Below, piece after piece: positions 2,444 to 47,889 of a DNA stretch of 64,000 bases (position 1 is its first letter; every line of letters starts with the position of its first letter). Under the pieces are notes generated by a model, which was not told the DNA's origin, ran no database searches, and worked only from the letters and a program-made list of their open reading frames with translations. The DNA is from Clostridiales bacterium Firm_08 (GTDB taxonomy: Bacteria; Bacillota; Clostridia; Oscillospirales; QAKW01). Both the position numbers and the translations under genes were made by a program. Where the stretch lies: the NCBI GenBank assembly GCA_001604045.1, contig LVAN01000001.1, positions 1 through 64,000 of the forward strand. Direction: 5' to 3'.

Positions 2444-5400
2444 TTATCCGAAATTCTTATCAAACTGCATGAGGATCTGCGCGACGGCGGCGCGGGTGGC
2501 TTTGCCCTGCGGGTCAAAGCTGCCGTTCGATCCGGCGATCAGACCCGCCTTCTGGCAGGTGGCGACCGCCGACTTCGCCCACTTGGAGATCTTTTTCGCA
2601 TCCTTGAAGGTCACGGCTTTGGTGGTGGGAGTGAGCGTGATCTTCATATATTTCGAGTAGGTCACAAGGATGGTGCAGATCTGCTCTCTCGTGATGGGAT
2701 CGTTGGGCATAAACCTGCCGCCGGATCCGGTGACGATGCCGTTGTCGCTCGCCCATTTGACGGCGCCGGCGTACCATTGTCCCTTCTTGACGTCGGTGAA
2801 TTTGGTCGTCACGTTGTTATTGACCTTCACGCCCGCCATCCGGGCGAGGACGGATACGAACATTCCTCTCGTCATATCGCCGTCCGGATCGAATTTACCA
2901 TTTGATCCCGCGAACAGACCGTTGTTGACCGCATAGCTGACGGCGCCGTAATACCACGCCTTTTTGCTGACGTCGGAAAAGAGTTTCGACGGATCGACGG
3001 CGGGCGCGACGATCTTTTCGATCGTCACCTCACTGTCCGGCTTGACGGCGTTGCAGACGGTACAATGGATGGATTTTCGTCCTTCCTCCGTGACGGTCGC
3101 GGCTTTGTCGACCGTATAGTCTGCCGCCCACATATGTCCGTTGGCGGGGATCTCAACATATGTCGTGTAGTCACACCGCGAGCAGGTATCATATGCGTTC
3201 CAGCCGATCGCCGTGCAGGCCGCGGCTTTCGCGTCGTGATGAATGAGATCGTGTCCGAGCGCGTCGGTATCCCGCCGTTCCGTCACAGGGCAGCGGGAAC
3301 AGGCTCTCGTTTCTTCGCCCTTTTCGGTGCAGGTCGCGGGCGTCGTTTCCGTCCACGATCCGAAGTTATGTCCGAGCGGTGCGGTCTCACTGTCCGTAAA
3401 CGAGTCGCCGCAATTTTTGCAGGTGTGCGTGGTATATCCGCCCTCGGTACAGGTGGGCGAAGTGATCACGTCCTCATACTTGTGCCCGAGCGGAGAAACG
3501 TTGTTCAGCGTTTTGGTCTGTGCTTTGAACATAGGATCTTCAAAAGTCGCGGTGTAGGTCGTCCTACCGCTTTCCGTACAGGTGGGACGCAGGGAGATGT
3601 CGGACGCTGCGTCCGCCGTTTCGGTCGTGATATGGGAAGGATCATTGCGGCAGACGGCGGTCGCCGTCACCTTGCTGTTGTCCGCCGACCAGGTGTAGAC
3701 CGGCTGACCCCAGTCGTGACCTTTTGCGGGGATCTCAACATACGTTGTGTAGTCACACCGCGAACAGGTATCATACGCGTTCCAGCCGGTCTCGGTGCAG
3801 GTCGCGGCTTTCGCGTCGTGATGGATGAGATCGTGGCCAAGCGCGGTGATCGTCTTTTGCTCGCGGGAGATCTCCTCGCCGCATTCGGAACAGCAGATGA
3901 CCTCATCATAGGAGCCTGCGGCTTCGCAGGATGCGGCAACTTCCTTTTCCCGTACCGGCTCGCCGGGGGTGTGCTGATGGGCGCCGCCCTCAACGATCGC
4001 ATAATAACTCAAATGCGGCGTCGTAAAAACGAGCTTGCCGTCGATCAGCTTTGCGTGCATCGCCTGATAGGTGCCGTCCGCGTTGATGCGGAAGACCTCG
4101 CAGGTATCGCCGTCGAACCCGTCGGGGACGGGGATGCTGACGGTCAGCAGACTGCCGGGCTGTACCTCGCGGGACTGATCGTCCACGATCTTGATCTCAA
4201 AGAGAGATACGTTGTCGTTTTCCTGCACGATCTGCTGCGCGCTCTCATAGAAAACGCCCTGCTCCACCTGCGCCACCACCAGGGTGACGTCCCGTTCCAC
4301 GATGGCGGACACACCGGTCTCTCCGTCGGACTGTTCTCCGATCAGACGGCAGTCGATGCCGTTTGCCGCGGCGTACCGTTCCGCCGCGGTCTCCGGCATA
4401 CAGTAGATGGCGTAGCCCTCGATCTTCCGGTCTTCGCCGTAGTAGCCGAACGCCTTATCGCCGATGGCGGTGACGCTGTCCGGCAGGGTGACGCTGACCA
4501 GATCGGTATCGTAAAACGCCTTTTCGCCGATGGTCGCCACGCCGTTTTCAAACATTACCAGCGCAAGAGAGGAACACCCGTCAAACGCGTTGTTGCCAAC
4601 CGTCTTCACCGTGGCGGGAATGGTGATCACCGTAAGCGTTTTATTGCCGGCGAACGCGCCGTCCGCAATGGCGGTCACCGTATACGCGCCGATCTTTTCG
4701 GGCAGGATGATCTCCGCCGCGGCGCCGGTATAGCCGGTGATCGCCGCGCTTTTGCCGTCCTGCGACACCTCGTACCGCAGATCGTCCCGCTCAAATTCGA
4801 CGACCTGTCCGTCCTCCGGCAGCACGGTGACGGAAACGCGGACCGACGATCCCTCCGCCATATCGTAATAATCTGCAAACTGCGAGTAGGCGGGGTCGGT
4901 GATCTTCAGCGTGCCGCCGATGATATATTCGCCCGCCCGGTCGGGATCGTAGGAAAGCAGATCCTCTTCGTTCCACACCACCTCGCACATCATCTTGTAA
5001 CCGTTGGTGGTGGTGCAGAGCTTGCGGCTGAAATAGGACTCGAGCCGCACCCGCAGCTGCTCCTCCGAAAAGCCGTTTTCCACCGTGAAGGATACCTCGA
5101 TATCATTGAATTTGATGATCTCGGTCTGCCGGTACACCGCCGTGACGGTGCAGTCGGCGCTGACGTTTGTATACGCGCCCTCCCAATGGTCAAAGGTATA
5201 GAAATATCTGCCGTCCGAGTAGCTTCCCGCGGCGGGCGGCGCGGCGCTGCCGCCCTTTTGTACCGACTGCCGCCCGAGGACCTCTCCGTCTCTGCCTGTA
5301 AAGGTGACGGTGTATGTGATGAAATGCTCGACGTCTTGCAGCGTGGGATAGTCGTATCCCTCCGCAACGCCGATCTCCCAGTATTCATCAAAATCGAAGC

Positions 5401-8400
5401 CGGCAAACGCTTCGGCGGTTTTCATCTGTTCGCCGGTCAGCGCGGTGCCGAGAGAATTTCCGTTTGTCACACAGCCGGACAGATAGTAGCAGTTGCTGAC
5501 GATGCCATAGACACGTCCCGCCACGCCGCCGGTGCTGCCGCTGCTGCCGGTCACCGGGCCGGCGTTGTAACAATGGCTGACCGTACTGTAAGAGTGGACA
5601 TATCCCACCACGCCACCGGTACTACCGTTGCCGGTCACCTTGCCGGTATTGTAGCAGTCGCTGACGATGCTGTCATATTTGGCATATTCCACCATATATC
5701 CCATCATATATCCCACCACGCCGCCGGTGTACACGCTGCCAATCACATTACCTTTGTTACAGCAGTTGCTGACAACACCGTTGCAGACTTCTCCCGCTAC
5801 GCCACCGGTGTAAGCATATTGTCCGTTGCCGGTCACCATGCCATCGTTGCAGCAGTTGCTGACAATGCCGTTAACATCTCCCGCCAAACCGCCGGCGCAG
5901 GAAGTTTGGCCGTTTCCAGTCACCGAACCATTGTTGTAGCAACTGATGACCGTACCAAAAATATCTCCCACGACACCACCGGTATCGCCGTTGCCAATCA
6001 CTGCACCTTCGTTATAGCAGTCGCTGACAGTGCTACTTTCACAGACATATCCCGCTACGCCACCGGTGTAGGCATATTGTCCGTTGCCGGTCACCGTGCC
6101 TTCGTTACGGCAGTTGCTGACGGTACTGTCACCATCGGCATATCCCGCCACGCCGCCGGTATACAAGTCACCGGTCACCGTGCCTTCGTTACGGCAGTTG
6201 CTGACGGTGCCGTCATCGAAATATCCCGCCACGCCGCCGGTATAATTATAATAACCGTTGCCGGTCACTGCACCGGTGTTGTAACAGCCGCTGACGGTGC
6301 CCTTATAGACACTTCCCGCCACGCCGCCGGTACAATTATAATCACCGCTGCCGATCACCGTGCCGGTGTTGTAACAATTGTTGATGATGCCATAACTGAC
6401 ATCTCCCGCCACGCTACCAGTATAACTTCCTGAATTATAAACATATGATTCTGCTATGCCGACGTTGGACACAGTTTCGCCGTCAACCCTGCCAAAAAGC
6501 CCGGCATATCTCATATTACCCCGGATATACAGACCCGATACGGTGTGCCCGTCGCCGTCATAGCTGCCGTCAAAAGTATATCGATCGTTGCCGATCGGCG
6601 TCCATTCGTTTTTGCCGGCGATATCATCGCAAAACAGGTCTCCGCCGTCGTTCAGCACGATATCTTCCGTCTGCCGGAAATATGTGCCGCTTTGGATCCT
6701 GCCTTTGTTGGTCTGCTGCGCCAGCCCCGCCAGCTCCCCGGCGGATGAGATCAGAAAGGGAGATTCCTTTGTGCCGTTTCCCTCCCACTCGGTATCCACG
6801 CTGCCGTCCCACACGGTCCCCGACGTATTGCGCGTCGTCCAGACCGCCTGAAAGTCGATGTCATCAGTAGGTACAAAGGGATCTTTCACGTAATACCGCG
6901 TTTCTTCGTTTCTCCAGTATCCGAAATCAAGGCCTTCCTTTTCGGGAGACGGAAGAGTGAACTCCGCTTCGCTCTTTAAAAGCTCTTCCCTGATGCAGGT
7001 CTCCCCGTCAAAAAAGCGCACGCTGTAATAATACTCTTTGCTACCAAGACTTCTCAACGTGGGATACGGGGACCCGGCGTCATACCCGTTCTCCCAAATT
7101 TTATTGAAGTCCCAGTCTTTAAAGGATCCTTTCTTCCGCATCTGCGCATCACTCAATGCGGTCCCGTGTTCGTTGCCGTTTTCCGCACAGCCGGACAAAT
7201 AGTAGCAGTTGCTGACAGTGCTGCTCTGTAAGACAGATCCCGCCACGCCGCCGGTATAAGAGTCTTCTCCGCTGCCGGTCACATCACCGGTGTTGTAGCA
7301 GTTACTGATAGTGCTGCTATTTTCGACAGATCCCGCCACGCCGCCGGTATACAAGTCACCGGTCACTGTTCCGGTGTTGTAGCAGTTGCTGACGGTGCCG
7401 GCATTATAGACAGATCCCGCCACGCCGCCGGCGTAGTGGCCGGTCACGGTGCCTTCATTATAGCAGTCAGTAGCAGAGCCGCTGCCTACCACGCCGCCGA
7501 CGTCCCAACCGATCACCGGGCCGATATTGCGGCAATCAGCCGCAGAACCGTAGCCCACCACACCGCCGGCATACGAACCGCCGGTCACCGGACCTTCGTT
7601 GCAGCAGTCGGTCGCGGAGCCGTAGCCTGCTACGCCGCCGGTGAATCTGCCGCCGGTCACATTGCCGGTGTTGTAGCAGTCGGTCGCAGAGCCACTGCCT
7701 ACCACGCCGCCGGTATAAGAGTTGTTTCCGCTGCCGGTCACTGTGCCTTCGTTGTAACAATCGCTGACAGTACCGTACCGTTCAACGGATCCCACCACGC
7801 CGCCGGCATACAAGTCACCGGTCACTGTTCCGGTGTTGTAGCAGTCGCTGACGGTGCCATCAACTTTTCCCGCTACGCCGCCGGTGCTGCCGTTGCCGGT
7901 CACCGTTCCTTCGTTATAACAACCGCTGACGGTGCCGTCATAATAGACATATCCCGCTACGCCGCCGGTGGCGTCGCTGCCGGTCACCGTTCCTTCGTTG
8001 TAACAACCGCTGACAGTACCGTACCATTCAACGGATCCCACCACGCCGCCGGCATATTTTCCAGTCACTGTTCCTTTGTTGTAGCAATTGCTGACGGTGC
8101 CGCCATAATAGACATATCCCGCTACGCCGCCGGTATAATTTCCTGAATTATAGACGTATGATTTTACCATGCCGACGTTGGATACCGTTCCGCCGTCAAC
8201 CCTGCCGAAAAGCCCGGCATATTCCAGATCGCCCCGGATATACAGGCCCGATACGGTATGCCCGCCGCCGTCATAGCTGCCGCGGAAAGAATTACTATAA
8301 CTCTCTCCGATCGGCGTCCAGTCGTTTTTGCCGGCGATATCGTCGCAAAACAGGTCTCCGCCGTCGTTCAGCACGATATCTTCCGTCTGCCGGAAATACA

Positions 8401-10255
8401 TGCCGCTTTGGATCTTTCCTTCATTGGTCCGCCGCGCCAGCCCCGCCAGCTCTTCGGCGGACGAGATCAGGAAGGGAGAGTCCTTTGTGCCGTTTCCTTC
8501 CCACTCCGTATCAATACTGCCGTCCCACACGGTCCCCGACGTATTGCGCGTCGTCCAGACCGCCTGAAAGTCGATGTCATCGGCAGGTACAAAGGGATCT
8601 TTCACGTAATACCGCGTTACTTCGTTTCTCCAGTATCCGAAATCAAGGCCTTCCTTTTCGGGAGACGGAAGAGTGAACTCCGTTTTACTATTTAAAAATT
8701 CTTCCCCGATGCAGGTTTCTCCGTCAAAAAAACACACGCCGTAATAATACTCTTTGCTGCCGAACCGTCTCAATGTAGGATACTGATAATCAGTGGCATA
8801 CCCGATCTCCCAAATTTTATTGAAGTTCCAGCCTCCAAAAGAATCTTCCTGCTGCATTTGCATTTCTGTCAGTTCGATACCGCCGTAAATTCTTCCTCCC
8901 ATCACACAATCGGACAAGTAGTAGCAGTTGTTAACTGTGCTATTAGCATAGCCCACCACGCCGCCGATGACGTCTTTTCCGTTGTCGGTCACCATTCCGA
9001 TATTGTAACAGTTACTGACAGTGCTGATGGGCCGGACGTTTCCCACCACGCCGCCAGTAACGTAACTGCCGGTCACTGTGCCGGTATTGTAGCAATCGTT
9101 GACGGTGCCGTCATCGACACGTCCCGCCACGCCGCCGGTAGAAGAGTTTTCTCCGTTGCAGGTTACTGTGCCGGTGTTGTAACAGTCGCTGATAATGCTT
9201 TCATCTTCGGCATACCCCGCTACGCCGCCAGCGACGTAACAGCCGGTCACATTGCCTTCATTGTAGCAACCGCTAATGGTGCTGTTAGAGACAGATCCCG
9301 CTACGCCGCCGGTGTAGGAAGAGTATTGGCTGCTGCCGTTCACCGTGCCGCTGTTGTAGCAGTCGTTGACGGTACCATCGTAGACATATCCCACTACGCC
9401 GCCGGTGCTGCCGTTGCCGGTCACGTCACCGATGTTGTAGCAGCTGCTGACAGTGCCATCAACTTTTCCCGCTACGCCGCCGGTGCTGCCGTTGCCGGTC
9501 ACGTCACCGATGTTGTAGCAGCTGCTGACAGTGCCATCAACTTTTCCCGCTATGCCGCCGGTGCTGCCGTTGCCGGTCACTATGCCTTCGTTGCAGCAGC
9601 TGCTGACGATGCTGTTATTATAGACATATCCCGCCACGCCGCCGGTGCTGCCGTTGCCGGTCACTATGCCTTCGTTGCAGCAGCCGCTGACGATGCTGTT
9701 ATTATAGACATATCCCGCCACGCCGCCGGTATAATTTCCTGAATTATAGACGTATGATTTTACCATGCCGACGTTAGATACCGTTCCGCCTCGAATATAA
9801 CCGAAAAGCCCGGCATATTCCATATCACCCCGGATATACAGGCCCGATACGGTATGCCCGTCGCCGTCAAAGATGCCGCGGAAAGCAGTAGTATGACCAG
9901 CTCCGATCGGCGTCCAGGAATTGACCGGGGCGATCAGATGACCCTCTCCGGTGTAGCTTCCCCAGTTTTTCCAGTTGGTGGTATCATTGAGGAGGATATC
10001 CGCGTCCAGGCGGAAGTGTTTTTCGAGAAATCCGTTCATATCGTTGACGCTTGCGGCAAGGTAAGCAAGCTGCTCCGCCGTTTTGATGACATACGGATCG
10101 TCTTTCGTGCCGCTGCCGCTTTCAAAGGAGTCGGCAGCGCTCCCGTCCCACACGGTAGTGACCGCGAATGCCGCCGGTACGATCTGCGATATCATCGATA
10201 CCGCCATCACGACCGCAAGGATCAGAGATACGAGCTTTTGTTTGTTCCGCTTCAT
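2444..10255 (-). CDS. Giant secreted GLUG-repeat / LRR / SLH surface protein
   Basis: A 2603-residue predicted S-layer-associated protein. The start is set at the ATG at 10255, which opens a clear signal peptide (MKRNKQK, a hydrophobic core, then a PAAFA-type cleavage site at about residue 31) and has an AGGGG Shine-Dalgarno 10 nt upstream. Order of parts: signal peptide; three modules each headed by TVWDG and containing about 10, 12 and 11 GLUG-type repeats (pattern TGGVAGxV...CYNxGxVTG, 26-30 residues, nearly every copy with a Cys); an InlB/Flg_new-like beta strip after each module; an Ig-like stretch; BspA-type LRR_5 repeats; a block of CxxC repeats; and three C-terminal SLH domains that should bind a secondary cell-wall polymer. 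The function may be adhesion or matrix; no enzymatic motif was seen. It is a single gene with its own probable promoter. Near-identical repeats make it prone to length change. Confidence 0.9.
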   Translation of the reverse strand: MKRNKQKLVSLILAVVMAVSMISQIVPAAFAVTTVWDGSAADSFESGSGTKDDPYVIKTAEQLAYLAASVNDMNGFLEKHFRLDADILLNDTTNWKNWGSYTGEGHLIAPVNSWTPIGAGHTTAFRGIFDGDGHTVSGLYIRGDMEYAGLFGYIRGGTVSNVGMVKSYVYNSGNYTGGVAGYVYNNSIVSGCCNEGIVTGNGSTGGVAGYVYNNSIVSSCCNEGIVTGNGSTGGIAGKVDGTVSSCYNIGDVTGNGSTGGVAGKVDGTVSSCYNIGDVTGNGSTGGVVGYVYDGTVNDCYNSGTVNGSSQYSSYTGGVAGSVSNSTISGCYNEGNVTGCYVAGGVAGYAEDESIISDCYNTGTVTCNGENSSTGGVAGRVDDGTVNDCYNTGTVTGSYVTGGVVGNVRPISTVSNCYNIGMVTDNGKDVIGGVVGYANSTVNNCYYLSDCVMGGRIYGGIELTEMQMQQEDSFGGWNFNKIWEIGYATDYQYPTLRRFGSKEYYYGVCFFDGETCIGEEFLNSKTEFTLPSPEKEGLDFGYWRNEVTRYYVKDPFVPADDIDFQAVWTTRNTSGTVWDGSIDTEWEGNGTKDSPFLISSAEELAGLARRTNEGKIQSGMYFRQTEDIVLNDGGDLFCDDIAGKNDWTPIGESYSNSFRGSYDGGGHTVSGLYIRGDLEYAGLFGRVDGGTVSNVGMVKSYVYNSGNYTGGVAGYVYYGGTVSNCYNKGTVTGKYAGGVVGSVEWYGTVSGCYNEGTVTGSDATGGVAGYVYYDGTVSGCYNEGTVTGNGSTGGVAGKVDGTVSDCYNTGTVTGDLYAGGVVGSVERYGTVSDCYNEGTVTGSGNNSYTGGVVGSGSATDCYNTGNVTGGRFTGGVAGYGSATDCCNEGPVTGGSYAGGVVGYGSAADCRNIGPVIGWDVGGVVGSGSATDCYNEGTVTGHYAGGVAGSVYNAGTVSNCYNTGTVTGDLYTGGVAGSVENSSTISNCYNTGDVTGSGEDSYTGGVAGSVLQSSTVSNCYYLSGCAENGNEHGTALSDAQMRKKGSFKDWDFNKIWENGYDAGSPYPTLRSLGSKEYYYSVRFFDGETCIREELLKSEAEFTLPSPEKEGLDFGYWRNEETRYYVKDPFVPTDDIDFQAVWTTRNTSGTVWDGSVDTEWEGNGTKESPFLISSAGELAGLAQQTNKGRIQSGTYFRQTEDIVLNDGGDLFCDDIAGKNEWTPIGNDRYTFDGSYDGDGHTVSGLYIRGNMRYAGLFGRVDGETVSNVGIAESYVYNSGSYTGSVAGDVSYGIINNCYNTGTVIGSGDYNCTGGVAGSVYKGTVSGCYNTGAVTGNGYYNYTGGVAGYFDDGTVSNCRNEGTVTGDLYTGGVAGYADGDSTVSNCRNEGTVTGNGQYAYTGGVAGYVCESSTVSDCYNEGAVIGNGDTGGVVGDIFGTVISCYNNGSVTGNGQTSCAGGLAGDVNGIVSNCCNDGMVTGNGQYAYTGGVAGEVCNGVVSNCCNKGNVIGSVYTGGVVGYMMGYMVEYAKYDSIVSDCYNTGKVTGNGSTGGVVGYVHSYSTVSHCYNAGPVTGSSGSTGGVAGRVYGIVSNCYYLSGCVTNGNSLGTALTGEQMKTAEAFAGFDFDEYWEIGVAEGYDYPTLQDVEHFITYTVTFTGRDGEVLGRQSVQKGGSAAPPAAGSYSDGRYFYTFDHWEGAYTNVSADCTVTAVYRQTEIIKFNDIEVSFTVENGFSEEQLRVRLESYFSRKLCTTTNGYKMMCEVVWNEEDLLSYDPDRAGEYIIGGTLKITDPAYSQFADYYDMAEGSSVRVSVTVLPEDGQVVEFERDDLRYEVSQDGKSAAITGYTGAAAEIILPEKIGAYTVTAIADGAFAGNKTLTVITIPATVKTVGNNAFDGCSSLALVMFENGVATIGEKAFYDTDLVSVTLPDSVTAIGDKAFGYYGEDRKIEGYAIYCMPETAAERYAAANGIDCRLIGEQSDGETGVSAIVERDVTLVVAQVEQGVFYESAQQIVQENDNVSLFEIKIVDDQSREVQPGSLLTVSIPVPDGFDGDTCEVFRINADGTYQAMHAKLIDGKLVFTTPHLSYYAIVEGGAHQHTPGEPVREKEVAASCEAAGSYDEVICCSECGEEISREQKTITALGHDLIHHDAKAATCTETGWNAYDTCSRCDYTTYVEIPAKGHDWGQPVYTWSADNSKVTATAVCRNDPSHITTETADAASDISLRPTCTESGRTTYTATFEDPMFKAQTKTLNNVSPLGHKYEDVITSPTCTEGGYTTHTCKNCGDSFTDSETAPLGHNFGSWTETTPATCTEKGEETRACSRCPVTERRDTDALGHDLIHHDAKAAACTAIGWNAYDTCSRCDYTTYVEIPANGHMWAADYTVDKAATVTEEGRKSIHCTVCNAVKPDSEVTIEKIVAPAVDPSKLFSDVSKKAWYYGAVSYAVNNGLFAGSNGKFDPDGDMTRGMFVSVLARMAGVKVNNNVTTKFTDVKKGQWYAGAVKWASDNGIVTGSGGRFMPNDPITREQICTILVTYSKYMKITLTPTTKAVTFKDAKKISKWAKSAVATCQKAGLIAGSNGSFDPQGKATRAAVAQILMQFDKNFG

Positions 10256-10372
10256 TTTTGTTTTTCCCCTCTTTCTTTGATCAGCGCGCGGTTTTCCGGC
10301 AGACGGTTCCGTCGGCGGTCCCGCCGCCCGCCGCTTTCCCGGGCGCGCAATATTATCTCTTTTTATCATTTT

Positions 10373-10399
10373 ATCATACACAAAACAAACCCGCAACAA
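10373..10399 (-). promoter_or_regulatory. Possible promoter of the giant surface protein
   Basis: On the minus strand a TATGAT -10 (10378-10373) sits in an AT-rich stretch. The best -35, TTGTTG, is only 15 bp away. The leader to the ATG would be about 110 nt. The call is weak because the spacer is short. Confidence 0.3.
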
Positions 10400-10426
10400 A
10401 TTTTTTGCCTCCCGCCGCGAGCGCTG

Positions 10427-10462
10427 AAAAAAGCGTGATGACATTTGCCATCACGCTTTTTT
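10427..10462 (-). terminator. Terminator ending the polysaccharide operon
   Basis: A perfect 14-bp stem (AAAAAAGCGTGATG paired with its complement) around an 8-nt loop, ending in T6 on both strands. It lies 8 nt beyond the capF stop codon. It should end the 19-kb polysaccharide transcript before the surface-protein gene and could work in both directions. Confidence 0.9.
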
Positions 10463-41098: not shown

Positions 41099-42241
41099 TT
41101 ATTTTCCGCTTTCCCCCGCTTCGGCGGGAAGGGTGTACTCTTTGAAAAGATCGATCGGCCAGGAACGTTCCGGATTTTCGTAGATCACGATGTCCGGGTC
41201 CAGTTCCCTCACATAATACTCGAATACATCCTGATTGTAAATATTGTACCGGTGGATAAACGTTACCTCGCTGAAGTTCTCCGTGAAAAACTTTTCCTTG
41301 CGCATCATATAACTGTCATGGATGAGCAGCAGTTTCGGCTTATCGCTCTGCGCGGGGTTGACCGCGCGCGTGGCGTAGTTGTCTTTTTCGGAGGGATATA
41401 TCAGCGAGTCAAGTTTCTCTTTGTCGCCTTTGGCGGCGCTTTTGTTTTTCAGTTCGTACAGCGGCGTTTCCTCGTTGATGGTGAAATGAGAGGTGGGCAG
41501 AGACGTCATGACGCTGGTCGTGACATTGTAATCCTCCGCGGACAGCGGTCCGATCTCCGGATACCTCTCACCGAGGATCTCATACAGTTTCTGAATGACC
41601 AAAAACGCGCCGTTTTCGTTCCAGTGCGTCGCGTCATACTTTTTGTTGCAGACCTCCATCCTTTCCTTGCCCGCCAGCATGACGTCCTTCGCCCAGAACA
41701 GATCGACCTGCCGCTCCTTCAGCGCCTTCAGCATCTGATCGGTGCGGGAGGTGGTCCCCTTGACGTGGATCTCGTCGGGGAAATACTCCGCGTACACGGT
41801 TTTTTTGTCGGGGATCAGAAAATACAGGAACATTTTGTCGTTTTTCCCGCAATATTCCTGAAAGCCCTTGATGCCGTCCGCGAAAGCGGCCGCTTTCTTT
41901 TTGCTGAGATTGAGATGCTGATAATCCTTGATATAACGGGGCGCCTTATAGAACACGTGCCCTTCCTTGCCGTACATGAAACTCGGATGTTCCATCAGCC
42001 CGAACACCTTGTCGTTGATCTGCTGATACAAGTCAAGGCTTTCCGCGCGAAATCCGATGCGGGCGTTGATATACGGCTCCGCCGATTTTTGCAGCGCCAG
42101 CACGTCCGACGTGTCAAGTTCCGGCAGATAGTTGTTATCGATCTCGGAGCGCTGATCTTTGCGGAAATCGGTAAAGACCAGGGGCAGCGCCAGCAAACAG
42201 AAAAACATGACGCAAAAAATGATATTGACAGCTTTTTTCAT
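41099..42241 (-). CDS. AlgX/AlgJ-like SGNH-type polysaccharide O-acetylation protein
   Basis: 380 residues with one N-terminal membrane anchor (MKKAVNIIFCVMFFCLLALPLVF) and an extracellular SGNH-like domain. Family motifs are FMYGKEGHVFYKAP, DATHWNENGAFLV (the catalytic Asp-x-His neighbourhood) and LLIHDSYM as the nucleophile Ser block. Proteins of the AlgX/AlgJ (DHHW) family receive acetyl groups passed through a membrane MBOAT enzyme and put them on exported glycans. The partner MBOAT gene lies 14 bp upstream in the same operon. AAGGGGG precedes the ATG. The target polymer is unknown. Confidence 0.83.
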   Translation of the reverse strand: MKKAVNIIFCVMFFCLLALPLVFTDFRKDQRSEIDNNYLPELDTSDVLALQKSAEPYINARIGFRAESLDLYQQINDKVFGLMEHPSFMYGKEGHVFYKAPRYIKDYQHLNLSKKKAAAFADGIKGFQEYCGKNDKMFLYFLIPDKKTVYAEYFPDEIHVKGTTSRTDQMLKALKERQVDLFWAKDVMLAGKERMEVCNKKYDATHWNENGAFLVIQKLYEILGERYPEIGPLSAEDYNVTTSVMTSLPTSHFTINEETPLYELKNKSAAKGDKEKLDSLIYPSEKDNYATRAVNPAQSDKPKLLLIHDSYMMRKEKFFTENFSEVTFIHRYNIYNQDVFEYYVRELDPDIVIYENPERSWPIDLFKEYTLPAEAGESGK

Positions 42242-42255
42242 TCATTCGGCCCCCT

Positions 42256-43707
42256 TCAAAACCGGAAATAGATAAAAGGATTGTAGGTGCTGTTGGTGAT
42301 CAGCAAAAAGCAAAGGACCAGCAGCAGCAGCAAACACACCCGACGGACGATGACGACCCGGGTATCCTCCGAAAACCGCCGCGCGGCGGGGAAGCGCGCG
42401 AAAAGGACCTCCCGCCACGGGAAGCAGAACAGGGTGGCGAACACCAGCACGGTCAGCGTGCGGTCGTTGAGATACCAGCGTATGCCGTACCGCACGAAAT
42501 CGGCGTGAGAGATCCCGAACATCACCTTGAGATACGCGACGGTGTCGGGAACGTCCACGATCCTGAACAGCACCCATCCCAGCATCACCACAAACATCGT
42601 ATACAGCCAGCCGAGCCCCCCGGAAACAGGTTTGGGCAGACGTGGTGAGATCCCGCGCTTTTTGAGGACGCGCTCGATCAGCATAAACGCCCCGTGCCAC
42701 ATCCCCCACAGGATAAATCCCCAATCGGCGCCGTGCCATATGCCCGTGGCGAGGAACACGATGAACAGATGGAAATACACGTTTCCCTTCCGGTTGCCGC
42801 CCAAAGGGATATAGAGATAATCCCGGAACCACTGCGAAAGGGAGATGTGCCATCTCCTCCAGAATTCCGTGACCGAGCGGGAGATATAGGGGAAATTGAA
42901 GTTTTTCATAAACTCAAATCCGAACATTTTCCCCAGTCCGATCGCCATTTCGGAGTACCCGCAGAAATCATAAAAGATCTGCAGACTGTAACAGAACGCC
43001 CCCAGCCACGCCTGCGGTGCGGAGATCATTTTCGCGTTGGTCTCCATGATCTGCGTGGCGACATTTCCCAGGATGTTGGCGAATATCACCTTTTTCGCGA
43101 GCCCCCTGATAAAGATCTCCGCGCCTTCGGAGAACTTCGCGAAGGTGGATCTCCTCTCGCTCAGATAGGAGCGGATGTCCGAATACCGAATGATCGGTCC
43201 GGCGATGAGCTGCGGAAACATGGAGATGTAAAGCCCGAGCTTGGCGGGATTTTTCTGCACCATGACGCCGTCCGGCGAGGACATGTCCTGCCGGTATACG
43301 TCGATCACATAACTCATGCCCTGGAAGGTGTAGAAGGAAATACCGATGGGAAGCGCGATGTTACCCACCTCGATCTCCTTCGAGAGAACGGAGGAAAGCA
43401 CGCCGGCGGCAAAGGTGAAATATTTGAAATAAAACAGCGTTCCGAGATTGAACAAAACGGAAAACACCAACAGCGCGCGGGCTTTTTTCTCTTTGGACCG
43501 GCGGGCGTGGATACCCAGGCCGAACAGGTAGTTTCCCAAAATGGAAACCGTCATCAGGATGATATATTTCGGCTCTCCCCACGCGTAAAAAAACAAGCTG
43601 GATAAAAGCAGCACGGCATTTTTGAGATGAATGCCCGGCGCCGCGTAGTATAACAGCAGCACGACAGGCAAAAATACGCATAAAAAAATGGTCGAACTGA
43701 AAACCAT
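42256..43707 (-). CDS. MBOAT-family O-acyltransferase (AlgI/PatA-like)
   Basis: A 483-residue polytopic membrane enzyme with about 11 hydrophobic segments. AlgI-type features are LLLYYAAPG, LSSLFFYAWGEPKY, PIGISFYTFQGMSYVIDVYR, EFWRRWHISLSQWFRDYLYIPLGG and the MBOAT histidine region TGIWHGADWGFILWGMWHG. It should carry acetyl groups from cytosolic acetyl-CoA across the membrane to the AlgX-like partner encoded next. The ATG has AAGGAGAGG upstream and a TTGACA/CATAAT promoter at 43740-43768. D-alanylation by DltB-type MBOAT is excluded by the absence of dltA and dltC genes here and by closer resemblance to AlgI. Confidence 0.9.
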   Translation of the reverse strand: MVFSSTIFLCVFLPVVLLLYYAAPGIHLKNAVLLLSSLFFYAWGEPKYIILMTVSILGNYLFGLGIHARRSKEKKARALLVFSVLFNLGTLFYFKYFTFAAGVLSSVLSKEIEVGNIALPIGISFYTFQGMSYVIDVYRQDMSSPDGVMVQKNPAKLGLYISMFPQLIAGPIIRYSDIRSYLSERRSTFAKFSEGAEIFIRGLAKKVIFANILGNVATQIMETNAKMISAPQAWLGAFCYSLQIFYDFCGYSEMAIGLGKMFGFEFMKNFNFPYISRSVTEFWRRWHISLSQWFRDYLYIPLGGNRKGNVYFHLFIVFLATGIWHGADWGFILWGMWHGAFMLIERVLKKRGISPRLPKPVSGGLGWLYTMFVVMLGWVLFRIVDVPDTVAYLKVMFGISHADFVRYGIRWYLNDRTLTVLVFATLFCFPWREVLFARFPAARRFSEDTRVVIVRRVCLLLLLVLCFLLITNSTYNPFIYFRF

Positions 43708-44007: not shown

Positions 44008-47000
44008 TCAGCCGTTGATGAAATCCTGATACATAAAGGTCACGATCTCACAGCGGGAGCAGGTCTTGTTCGGCGCGAAGTGCGTGGCGTCGGTGCCTTT
44101 GGTGACGCCCGTTTCCACCGCCCACAGCACCGCTTTGTAGAACCAGTCTTTCTTTTTGATGTCGGTGAAGGGGTTTTTGGCGGTGGCGGGTTCGGGGTTG
44201 CCCTCGCTCGCGCGCAGGAACACCACGACCTCGGCGCGGGTGCAGGTCTTGTTCGGCGCGAAGTGGGTCTCGTCGGTGCCCTTGGTGATGCCCGTTTCCA
44301 CCGCCCACAGCACCGCTTTGTAGAACCAGTCGCTCTTTTTGACGTCGGCAAAGGGGTTTTTCTTCGCTTTGGGCGCGGGTCTGCCCGCCGCGTTCCACAG
44401 GAAAGCGACGACCTCGGCGCGGGTGCAGGTCTTGTTCGGCGCGAAGTGGGTCGCGTCGGTGCCCGCGGTGACATTGTTCTCCACCGCCCACTTGACGGAA
44501 GCGTAATACCAGTCTCTCGGCTTGACGTCGGCAAACGCCGAGACCTTGACCGGCGACCGTTTGGCAAGACCCCTGATCGCGGCCCAGATCGCCGACGCGG
44601 CGGCGTCCGCGTCGGTCTGCGGCGCGGTCTTATCTTCCAGCAGGGCGTTGCCGGCGGTGACGGCTTCGTCCAGTTTGCGCAGGGACAGATCGGTGTAGTC
44701 CCGGCGTTTGACCGCCCCGGCGGCCTGCAGCGCCGCGATCAGCGCGGCGGTGTCGGGTCCCGCGGGTTTGTCCGCGAAGCGGAAGTCCATCATATAATAA
44801 TTGCGGTCGTCGTCCAGCGCCAGCGCAAAACTGCCGCCCTCGATACCGGTGATCGTTTGCGGGCCTTCCTCCGAGAAGTAGCGGATGATCTTGGTAAGCG
44901 TTTCATCCTCCGGCCAGGAGACGGTCAGCGTCCGGACGGCGGCCGGCAGGCGGAATTTGATCAGCGTCTGCGTCGCGCCCTCGAATACCGAGATATCCTC
45001 CTCGCCGACGGCCTCGGAGAACTCCAGCGGCACCTTGCCGACAGACAGGACGTCCACGACGACAGGTTTTTCCTCTGTACCCTCAAAGACGCGGGTCGCG
45101 AAGTCCGCCTCGTTCCAGAACACGACGACCTGGATGCCGTCGGCGGTCGCCGGCTCGAAGGTCAGGACGTTGTTGTCAAAGATGTAGCCCTCGACCTCGG
45201 AAACGCCGTTCCAGACGACGAACTCCTCGTACCACTCGCCGCCGCCCAGCGGGTAGCGGACGAAAACGCAGGGCGCGTAAGGATCGACAGGGGTCGCGAG
45301 GGTCTCAAGATCAAAGCCGCCGATCTCCTGCGCAAGCCGTGAGTTGGCGCGGGCGGGATCCAGCGTGACGCTGATCTGATCCTGCTCATAGGGCAGGTCC
45401 TTGCGGCCGGTGACGTACTCGCCCTGATAGAACACGCTGCCGTTGGCGGTGTCGTAATCAATACGAAGGGCGTTCGCCTGTACCTCGCCGCTGTCCTCGA
45501 ATTCCATTTCGATATGATAGAAAGTCTCCGGCTCGCCATCGTCCCGGATCTGATCCAGCGTGAGGGTATAGGACGCGCCTTCGGGGTTTTCGATGTCCAG
45601 GCGCTCGCCCTGCCCGCCGGCGCCGTCCACGCCGATCCGGCGGGCGGTGCCCTCCCAGCCGATCACGATGGACGCCTGATCTTCCGGCAGACGGACCCGC
45701 AGGCGGGTCTCGGAGCGTTTGATATTTTCCTCGGGGATGCCGTCCGGCAGGACGGGCGCGCCGCTGCCCCACCAGTTGATCTCTAAGATGACCGGCGCCT
45801 CTTCGGTTCCGTTAAAGCGGGCGAATTCGTAGTCCTCTTTGGACCAAAAGACTTCAAATTCCACGTCGTTGTCGCTCACCGGCGTGTAGCTCAGCACGTT
45901 GTTCTCGAAGGTGAAGCCCTCGTAGACGGCTTTGCCGTCCGCGACGACGACCTCGTCGATCCATTCGCCGTTCGCGTTTTCAAAGCCGGCGCAGACGTAC
46001 AGCGCTCTGTCCTCGCGGAAGTCCGCCGTGGTGAGCGCGAACTCACCCTGTTCCAGTTTGTCGAAATCGACTTTTTTGGTGCCGTCCAGCAGCAGGTTGA
46101 TGGTGGTCGGCTCGCCGTCTTTGAGGAAAGACAGCGGCTGTTCCATCGCCATCACGCTGTATTCCCGGGTCTCGGTCGGGATCTCGCCCGCCGCGGCGAA
46201 CACGGCGCCGCCGTTGTTGTCGCCGTTGACGCGGACCTCGCCGTTGCCGTGCCAGCCTCCATCAAAGTCAAATTCGATATGATAGAAAGTCCTCGGATCG
46301 CCGTTCGGCTCCTGCTGACCCAGCGAAAGCACGTATACGCTTCCCTCGGGTTCGAAAATTTCAAGATAATCGCCGTTTTCGCCGCCGCCCTCTACGCCGA
46401 TACGGCGGAGAGGATCGCCCTCGTTCCAGGCGAATATAACGGAAGCGTAGGAAAGCGGCACGCGGATCTTGACGCGGCCGTCCGCCTCGATCTTATCCCC
46501 GGCGGGGATCTCCGCCATCGTCCGGACGCTGCCGGCGCCCCACCATCTGTACTCGACGACGACGGGTTTTTCCACGGTGCCGCCGAACGTGCCGAAATCG
46601 TAGTCCTCCCCGGAGGTGTACACGCGGATCTCAACGCCCCGCGCCGACGGCGGCGTGAAGGAAAGCACGCCGTTTTCAAACGTGAAGCCGTCCTTGACGA
46701 CCTCGCCGTCCCTGACGACAAGCCCGTCGAACCACTCGCCGTCCGCCTCCTCGAAACACGCCTGAATGTAAGCGTTGTCAAGATAATGCCATTCCTCGCC
46801 GACGGGCAGGAACGCCCGCTCGTCCGTCTCGTTGAATTTTTCCCAGTCAAAGCACTGTTCGGTGTCAAAGCGCAGGCTGACCGCGCCGACGCCCTCTCCG
46901 GTCAGGAAAGAGAAGTCCTCGTTGGACATGGCGAACGTTTCCGCCGCGCCGCCCACTGAGGCGAACATAACGCAGCGGTTCATATCGTAGTCGACGCGGA

Positions 47001-47847
47001 TCGCGCCTTCCGGCTGACCGCCGCCGCCTTCGAATTCAAATTCCATGTTGTAGTGGGTCGCCTTGTTGTCGCCGTCCGTCTGATCCAGCGCCAGTGTGTA
47101 GGACGTACCCTCGGGATCCTCGATCTCCAGACGGCCGCCGTTATTTCCCGCGCCGTCCACGTTGATCCGGCGGGCGGTACCCGTCCAGGAAAGGGTCAGC
47201 GTCTGCCGGTCAAACGGCACGCGTACCCGCAGGCGGCCGTCCCGTTTCAGGACGTTCTCCGCGGGGATGTCGTCCGGCAGGAGGACGTCGCCGTCGCCCC
47301 ACCAGTTGCACTCAACGAGCACCGGCGCCTCGTCGGTGCCCTGAAAGCGGCTGAACGCATAGTCGCCCGCGGTCCAGAAGGCCTCCAGCTCGACGCCGTT
47401 TTCCGGCATGGTAAAGGTCAATATATTATTCTCAAAGGAAAATCCGTCGCGGACGGCGGCTCCGTTTTCGACGACGGGGCCGTCAAACCAGCCGGCCGCC
47501 GTATCGTACCGCGCCACGACATAGATCGCGCGGTCGTTCGCGGTCCAGGGATCGGTGAACGCGACGTTGCCGCTCTGTTCATACTCGTTCCAGTCAAGGG
47601 CGAGCTGTTCGCTGAACAGCAGGCGGACCGTCTGTCCGGCGGTCACCTCGCTTTCGCCGTCAAAGAGGTAGTCCCCGGCGATCGCCTGCGGGGTATTCTC
47701 TCCCGTCGCCGCGAAAAGACTGCCACCGTTCTGATCGTAGTGAACGCGCAGACGGGACGTCTGTCCCGGCGTGCCGAACGCCTGCGCCGGCAGCAGCGCC
47801 GCGACCATCACAAGACAGAGCAGCATGGCCGTTACTCGTTTTTTCAT
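44008..47847 (-). CDS. SLH-domain surface protein with four copies of an unrecognised ~215-residue module
   Basis: A 1279-residue secreted protein. The ATG at 47847 opens a signal peptide (MKKRVTAMLLCLVMVAALLPAQAFG) and has AGGAGG 7 nt upstream. Four tandem modules follow (about residues 30-235, 236-470, 471-705 and 706-940). Each begins with a strand like LRVHYDQNGG or IRVDYDMNR, then has a GEWFDGLVVRDG-type loop, F-x-N-x-VLSFTP, a WWGxG motif and GTARRIxVDGAG. Module 4 is the most diverged. A FIVAR-like helical repeat (about 980-1040) and three C-terminal SLH domains (AFADVKPRDWYYASVKWA and two more) follow. It is probably anchored to a secondary wall polymer. I do not recognise the repeated module. 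Confidence 0.85.
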   Translation of the reverse strand: MKKRVTAMLLCLVMVAALLPAQAFGTPGQTSRLRVHYDQNGGSLFAATGENTPQAIAGDYLFDGESEVTAGQTVRLLFSEQLALDWNEYEQSGNVAFTDPWTANDRAIYVVARYDTAAGWFDGPVVENGAAVRDGFSFENNILTFTMPENGVELEAFWTAGDYAFSRFQGTDEAPVLVECNWWGDGDVLLPDDIPAENVLKRDGRLRVRVPFDRQTLTLSWTGTARRINVDGAGNNGGRLEIEDPEGTSYTLALDQTDGDNKATHYNMEFEFEGGGGQPEGAIRVDYDMNRCVMFASVGGAAETFAMSNEDFSFLTGEGVGAVSLRFDTEQCFDWEKFNETDERAFLPVGEEWHYLDNAYIQACFEEADGEWFDGLVVRDGEVVKDGFTFENGVLSFTPPSARGVEIRVYTSGEDYDFGTFGGTVEKPVVVEYRWWGAGSVRTMAEIPAGDKIEADGRVKIRVPLSYASVIFAWNEGDPLRRIGVEGGGENGDYLEIFEPEGSVYVLSLGQQEPNGDPRTFYHIEFDFDGGWHGNGEVRVNGDNNGGAVFAAAGEIPTETREYSVMAMEQPLSFLKDGEPTTINLLLDGTKKVDFDKLEQGEFALTTADFREDRALYVCAGFENANGEWIDEVVVADGKAVYEGFTFENNVLSYTPVSDNDVEFEVFWSKEDYEFARFNGTEEAPVILEINWWGSGAPVLPDGIPEENIKRSETRLRVRLPEDQASIVIGWEGTARRIGVDGAGGQGERLDIENPEGASYTLTLDQIRDDGEPETFYHIEMEFEDSGEVQANALRIDYDTANGSVFYQGEYVTGRKDLPYEQDQISVTLDPARANSRLAQEIGGFDLETLATPVDPYAPCVFVRYPLGGGEWYEEFVVWNGVSEVEGYIFDNNVLTFEPATADGIQVVVFWNEADFATRVFEGTEEKPVVVDVLSVGKVPLEFSEAVGEEDISVFEGATQTLIKFRLPAAVRTLTVSWPEDETLTKIIRYFSEEGPQTITGIEGGSFALALDDDRNYYMMDFRFADKPAGPDTAALIAALQAAGAVKRRDYTDLSLRKLDEAVTAGNALLEDKTAPQTDADAAASAIWAAIRGLAKRSPVKVSAFADVKPRDWYYASVKWAVENNVTAGTDATHFAPNKTCTRAEVVAFLWNAAGRPAPKAKKNPFADVKKSDWFYKAVLWAVETGITKGTDETHFAPNKTCTRAEVVVFLRASEGNPEPATAKNPFTDIKKKDWFYKAVLWAVETGVTKGTDATHFAPNKTCSRCEIVTFMYQDFING

Positions 47848-47889
47848 ATTTTTTCCTCCTTTTATTTGAATATGGAACTCTCCATTTCG

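Follow-up and report, generated by a model that had tools for sequence, protein, structure and literature searches.

A fourfold repeated module of an orphan sequence family in an SLH-anchored surface protein of a Clostridiales bacterium

Background

Modular surface proteins anchored by SLH domains (PF00395) are the closest described systems for the protein reported here. It shares with them three C-terminal SLH domains, a probable signal peptide and a large repetitive exposed part, but differs in its exposed module: none of the four copies, each scanned by itself, matches a Pfam family (E up to 0.1). According to PMC6081394, a trimer of SLH domains uses Trp, Gly and the TRAE Arg to bind cell-wall polymers.

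The Gram-positive pilins and adhesins are the second system to be compared. These are beta sandwiches in tandem on the cell surface, an arrangement that is also predicted for our protein, and covalent strengthening is typical of pilin shafts. The structures that we take to represent this group are those of Spy0128 (3gle, 3gld, 3b2m), PitB (4s3l, 7w7i), the T-antigens (6n0a, 8f70) and Cpa (4bug). The combination of an SLH anchor with acidic Ig-like domains is also found in S-layer proteins.

Results

The window, i.e., the whole stretch of 64,000 nucleotides that was analysed (C2:1-64000 of genome G000), carries the repeat and the SLH domains in a single open reading frame on the minus strand, which codes for 1279 aa and has the following features. 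The module borders were obtained from pairwise comparison and a four-row alignment.

44008-47847, minus strand: coding sequence of the SLH protein, 1279 aa, stop included, start codon M at 47847
47855-47860, minus strand: AGGAGG, resembling a ribosome-binding site, a few bases upstream of the ATG start (by eye)
47779-47847, minus strand: probable signal peptide, cleavage guessed by eye after AQA, aa 23
47005-47757, minus strand: module 1, aa 31-281
46252-47004, minus strand: module 2, aa 282-532
45481-46251, minus strand: module 3, aa 533-789
44764-45480, minus strand: module 4 (diverged), aa 790-1028
47377-47757, minus strand: predicted N-terminal beta-sandwich of module 1, edge approximate (AlphaFold2, VIA-align)
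46633-47004, minus strand: its equivalent in module 2, edges approximate
45859-46251, minus strand: its equivalent in module 3, edges approximate
45118-45480, minus strand: its equivalent in module 4, edges approximate
47005-47376, minus strand: predicted C-terminal beta-sandwich of module 1, edge approximate (sub-alignment, AlphaFold2, Foldseek, VIA-align)
46252-46632, minus strand: its equivalent in module 2, edges approximate
45481-45858, minus strand: its equivalent in module 3, edges approximate
44764-45117, minus strand: its equivalent in module 4, edges approximate
44566-44748, minus strand: FIVAR-like segment, aa 1034-1094 (Pfam, below cut-off)
44011-44541, minus strand: three SLH domains, aa 1103-1279 (Pfam; motifs TRAE, TRAE and SRCE)

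The signal peptide is a reading by eye of the N-terminus, where MKKR is followed by a hydrophobic stretch and then by AQA. At the other end, the Pfam SLH model matches three stretches (E 2.3e-35, 120.7 bits against a cut-off of 20.8). The Arg of the TRAE position is present in all three domains, the third reading SRCE, and so are, by eye, the Trp and the last Gly of the GIIxG position. Judged from the score cut-off and this Arg, aa 1103-1279 are an SLH anchor. The preliminary description had placed the repeat between a signal peptide and an SLH anchor. This is in line with our results, the signal peptide being probable, except that a segment ahead of the SLH domains and after module 4 had been missed: aa 1034-1094, scanned alone, match the FIVAR profile (PF07554, E 3.8e-4), yet their score of 21.5 bits is below the curated cut-off of 29.2. 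The modules are strongly acidic (pI 4.1-4.2, net charge from -25 to -35 each); the SLH part has a pI of 9.1.

The fourfold repeat is real and not a product of chance. In all six pairs of modules the local alignment score lies 22-83 standard deviations above those of shuffled sequences (200 shuffles each). BLASTP identity is 47% between modules 1 and 3, 40% between 1 and 2, and 39% between 2 and 3. Module 4, although recognizable, has diverged: its identity to modules 1, 2 and 3 is 30%, 29% and 26% over 169, 163 and 254 columns (E 3.6e-19, 5.7e-15 and 1.7e-20). The four copies noticed initially thus stand, the last of them with this reservation, but the module is longer than the 215 or so residues proposed at that time, the period being 239-257 aa with linkers included.

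The alignment of the four modules has 274 columns, 30 of them invariant; the invariant positions include W90 (in a GxW loop), N110, R179, P181 and W191 in the numbering of module 1. By inspection, two of the motifs listed in the preliminary description are common to all four modules, in the forms W-[FIY]-[DE]-x-x-VV and F-[ED]-N-[NG]-[VI]-L. The others are less general. Only modules 2 and 3 have TP after the second motif. Module 4 lacks both WWGxG and RRI-x-V-[DE]-G-[AG]-G, which the other three share, and the exact GTARRI is found only in modules 1 and 3. A duplication inside the module was also considered and dropped as inconsistent, since the best score of the first half against the second was reached by 15, 186, 2 and 175 of 200 shuffles in modules 1, 2, 3 and 4.

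By sequence the module could not be assigned to a known domain, as had been suspected. When the whole protein was scanned with Pfam at E up to 10, a single row fell within the modules, namely fn3_PAP over aa 646-688 of module 3; with E 0.15 and 12.6 bits it is sub-threshold, the cut-off being 33. No PHROGs family matched aa 1-1019 (E up to 10), the PADLOC models of anti-phage defence gave nothing at E up to 1, and the NCBIfam matches, for which the whole protein was scanned, all lie at aa 1032 and beyond. The best PDB sequences had E 0.32 and 0.35.

The genome itself carries the module in one gene only. The profile of the module was compared with several sets of genomes, of which the relatives, the class and the phylum overlap and each include the genome under study. 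It found only its own gene among 398 genomes of the phylum and among 394 of the order; the latter are probably the same genomes as the 394 relatives, the totals being equal. The search of these relatives at E up to 0.01 added two weak matches to the own gene, one covering 32 positions with E 0.002 and the other 64 with E 0.0087; by eye they are a phage-tail-like protein and a small membrane-anchored one, and we judged them to be chance. Among 391 genomes of the class, two further matches were obtained (E 1.3e-4 and 1.4e-4) in frames of 1880 and 1878 aa belonging to one family. Rescored with an assumed 20,000 targets, each consists of a single stretch, some 110 positions long, that scores 17 bits, with E 7e-4 and 9e-4; the pair could be chance or very remote beta-sandwich kin. 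The 11 other genomes of the family, several of them incomplete, gave no profile match, the genus mate (60% complete) included.

Other searches agree with this picture. With aa 1-1019 as the query, 197 relatives yielded the own genome and one match (E 7.8e-4, query 3-75), which was rejected as a relative because BLASTP narrows it to aa 3-24, i.e., to the region of the signal peptide. Genome contig collections contained 5 and 89 stretches with the pattern and viral contigs 122, none of them confirmed; these scans detect only relatives that have short peptide patterns in common with the module. There was one match in phages (E 0.9) and no match in plasmids. HMMER over 556 frames from the examined loci gave no further convincing match, hhalign of the module against the exposed parts of six other SLH proteins gave probabilities under 1%, and the literature search found no published account of the module among the matches listed. 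As far as sequence comparison goes, the family is an orphan in the collections searched.

A different impression is given by the predicted fold. AlphaFold2 with the four-row alignment gave a mostly beta model of the module (pLDDT 78.8, pTM 0.72), in which the first 40 residues have block values of pLDDT between 42 and 69 and residues 21-35 fall under 50. VIA-align superposes the part from about residue 9 to 132 on Ig domains, with Z 6.0 and rmsd 2.9 over 79 residues; for residues 145-244 it gives the Spy0128 pilin, with Z 5.7 and rmsd 2.9 over 86 residues. Most rows for the whole module are Ig domains of antibodies and receptors, which says no more than "Ig-like". The models suggest that each module is composed of two beta-sandwich domains. 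The profile search and structure prediction proposed for a single module have thus given no named family, but a predicted fold that is not exotic.

One may object that the two domains are an artefact, produced by an alignment that is too shallow, and that the module is a single beta fold of another, unknown kind. All models were made from only four rows, which come from one gene; the first 40 residues are modelled poorly, as noted above; and Foldseek against PDB produced no match at E 0.001 or better for either model. On the other hand, the C-terminal unit modelled alone (pLDDT 83.2, pTM 0.76) retains much the same order of strands as in the whole module, and pilin domains rank first for it again. 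We therefore regard the artefact as unlikely.

For the C-terminal unit, the top 14 VIA-align rows without exception belong to pilins or adhesins of Gram-positive bacteria, some proteins being represented by several entries; Z is 4.6-5.8 with 85-104 residues aligned, and the best has Z 5.8 and rmsd 3.2 A with 88-89 residues aligned. With both models the first Foldseek row is the pilin PitB, but the matches are weak (E 4.0e-3 and 3.5e-2) and the top rows have low TM-scores, 0.21 and 0.32 when taken by query length. The two matches with E under 0.001 in a library of viral structures also have low TM-scores (0.14 and 0.19) and are uninformative. The C-terminal domain appears to be nearest to the pilin and adhesin domains, and we only suggest kinship of the fold, because a VIA-align Z under 8 may reflect nothing but a common arrangement, and the families that are not listed are not excluded by it.

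The module also differs from the pilins and adhesins in several respects. It has no match among the PDB sequences, and no column of the alignment has Lys in three or more of the four modules, as would be expected of a conserved isopeptide bond, or two Cys; conserved covalent cross-links are therefore not supported. The same applies to the CnaB-like isopeptide domains in particular: the best Z of the C-terminal unit (5.8) is too low to tell kinship from a common arrangement, and the Lys of a Lys-Asn/Asp cross-link has no conserved column in at least three of the four modules. Finally, the protein ends in the third SLH domain, so that its anchor is SLH, and polymerisation is not expected.

Discussion

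We presume that the protein is probably, if by no means surely, a secreted surface protein attached by its SLH domains, whose four two-domain units make a rod of about eight sandwiches that are Ig-like in the broad sense, and that it serves as a stalk or adhesin shaft. The fourfold repeat and the SLH domains are established, as is the absence of sequence relatives from the collections that we searched; the two-domain fold is a prediction, and the secretion, the rod shape and this role are what we infer. The signal peptide would direct the protein out of the cell, the four modules would form the rod, the three SLH domains would hold it non-covalently to a cell-wall polymer, and the FIVAR-like segment would join the anchor to the rod, which is strongly acidic and would project from the envelope. 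The stalk is favoured because of the predicted fold and the tandem layout: about eight sandwiches in a row between the signal peptide and the anchor make it the best reading. We also count the sub-threshold fn3-type row in module 3 in its favour.

The main rival is that the modules mainly bind a ligand, glycan or protein, with four copies for avidity, while the rod shape is secondary. It is tempting to refer to the invariant W90 and W191 and to the WWG of three modules; however, these aromatics could equally belong to a binding site or to the core, and module 4 has no WWG. Fungal lectins do occur among the weak Foldseek rows for the C-terminal unit (1x99, E 0.70; 1xi0, E 0.98; 3qds, E 1.2), but such rows are at the level of chance, and the single CBM20 row of VIA-align has only Z 3.6. 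A match to the carbohydrate-binding domain Cthe_2159 was found in a paralogue with a close SLH anchor, whereas no carbohydrate-binding family matched the modules themselves by sequence. We consider ligand binding as the main function possible but doubtful. A narrower version takes the module for a new binding unit of two domains that arose in this one bacterial lineage, unrelated by descent to the pilin and CnaB domains, and whose conserved aromatics bind a specific glycan with fourfold avidity; this seems to us quite unlikely.

The paralogue just mentioned (G000:C27, L073:599-5908:-, 1770 aa) is the closest to our protein in the anchor, being 63% identical over positions 107-255 of the query aa 1020-1279, while its exposed part is unrelated: it has repeated units that match Cthe_2159 and Beta_helix, and no match to the module. 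With the same query, 32 places in the genome match at E 1e-8 or better, counting the module gene itself and with some places belonging to one protein. Where the exposed parts were looked at, similar SLH anchors carry different exposed parts. One of these proteins lies in the same window (2444-10444, minus strand): it has 2666 aa, 14 GLUG stretches and a BspA-type LRR_5 region.

These data also bear on the proposal that the protein is a subunit of a surface array, i.e., of an S-layer lattice, and not a solitary stalk. Its SLH anchor with acidic Ig-like domains would be in keeping with the S-layer layout. Yet with so many SLH proteins in the genome, nothing marks this one as the abundant protein, and one would expect the family to have kept a lattice protein, while its 11 other genomes, several incomplete, gave no match to the module profile. 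We believe a lattice role to be very unlikely and prefer the stalk or adhesin shaft.

The architecture is thus that of an ordinary modular SLH surface protein, and the sequence family is an orphan. Poorly studied bacteria rich in SLH proteins have many such modular surface proteins, and their exposed parts can consist of a sequence family without named relatives despite a commonplace predicted fold. Should the modules indeed bind a ligand, they would represent a new family of binding domains; should they form a stalk, they would join the other Ig-like repeats that serve as spacers, in this instance with no conserved covalent cross-link. In another genome of the family (G010), an SLH protein at L055, about 2945-5854 on the plus strand, has a repeated unit of its own with a GTYRYSNQLRI-like stretch; hhalign found no relation between this unit and the module.

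Concerning the ligand of the anchor, a pyruvyl transferase (PF04230) is expected where SLH ligands are pyruvylated. It has 0 matches in the genome under study (86% complete) and in the genus mate (60% complete), and is present in 7 of the 12 family genomes, among them all five that are at least 90% complete. We count this lack of a match against the proposed reading; it may come either from the incompleteness of the genome or from a different wall ligand.

Upstream of the SLH gene there are genes for an FAD oxidoreductase and a GNAT_C protein, gyrA, gyrB, a gene for a RecF/SMC-type ATPase, and dnaN; the GNAT_C neighbour, searched for in the 12 family genomes, was found in its own and in six others (28-34% identity). 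Downstream, an MBOAT acyltransferase (42256-43707, minus strand) is followed by an AlgX-like protein (41099-42241, minus strand). Pairs of this kind are described in PMC12148441 as acylating envelope polymers, and the pair at 41099-43707 possibly carries out O-acylation of a cell-wall polymer.
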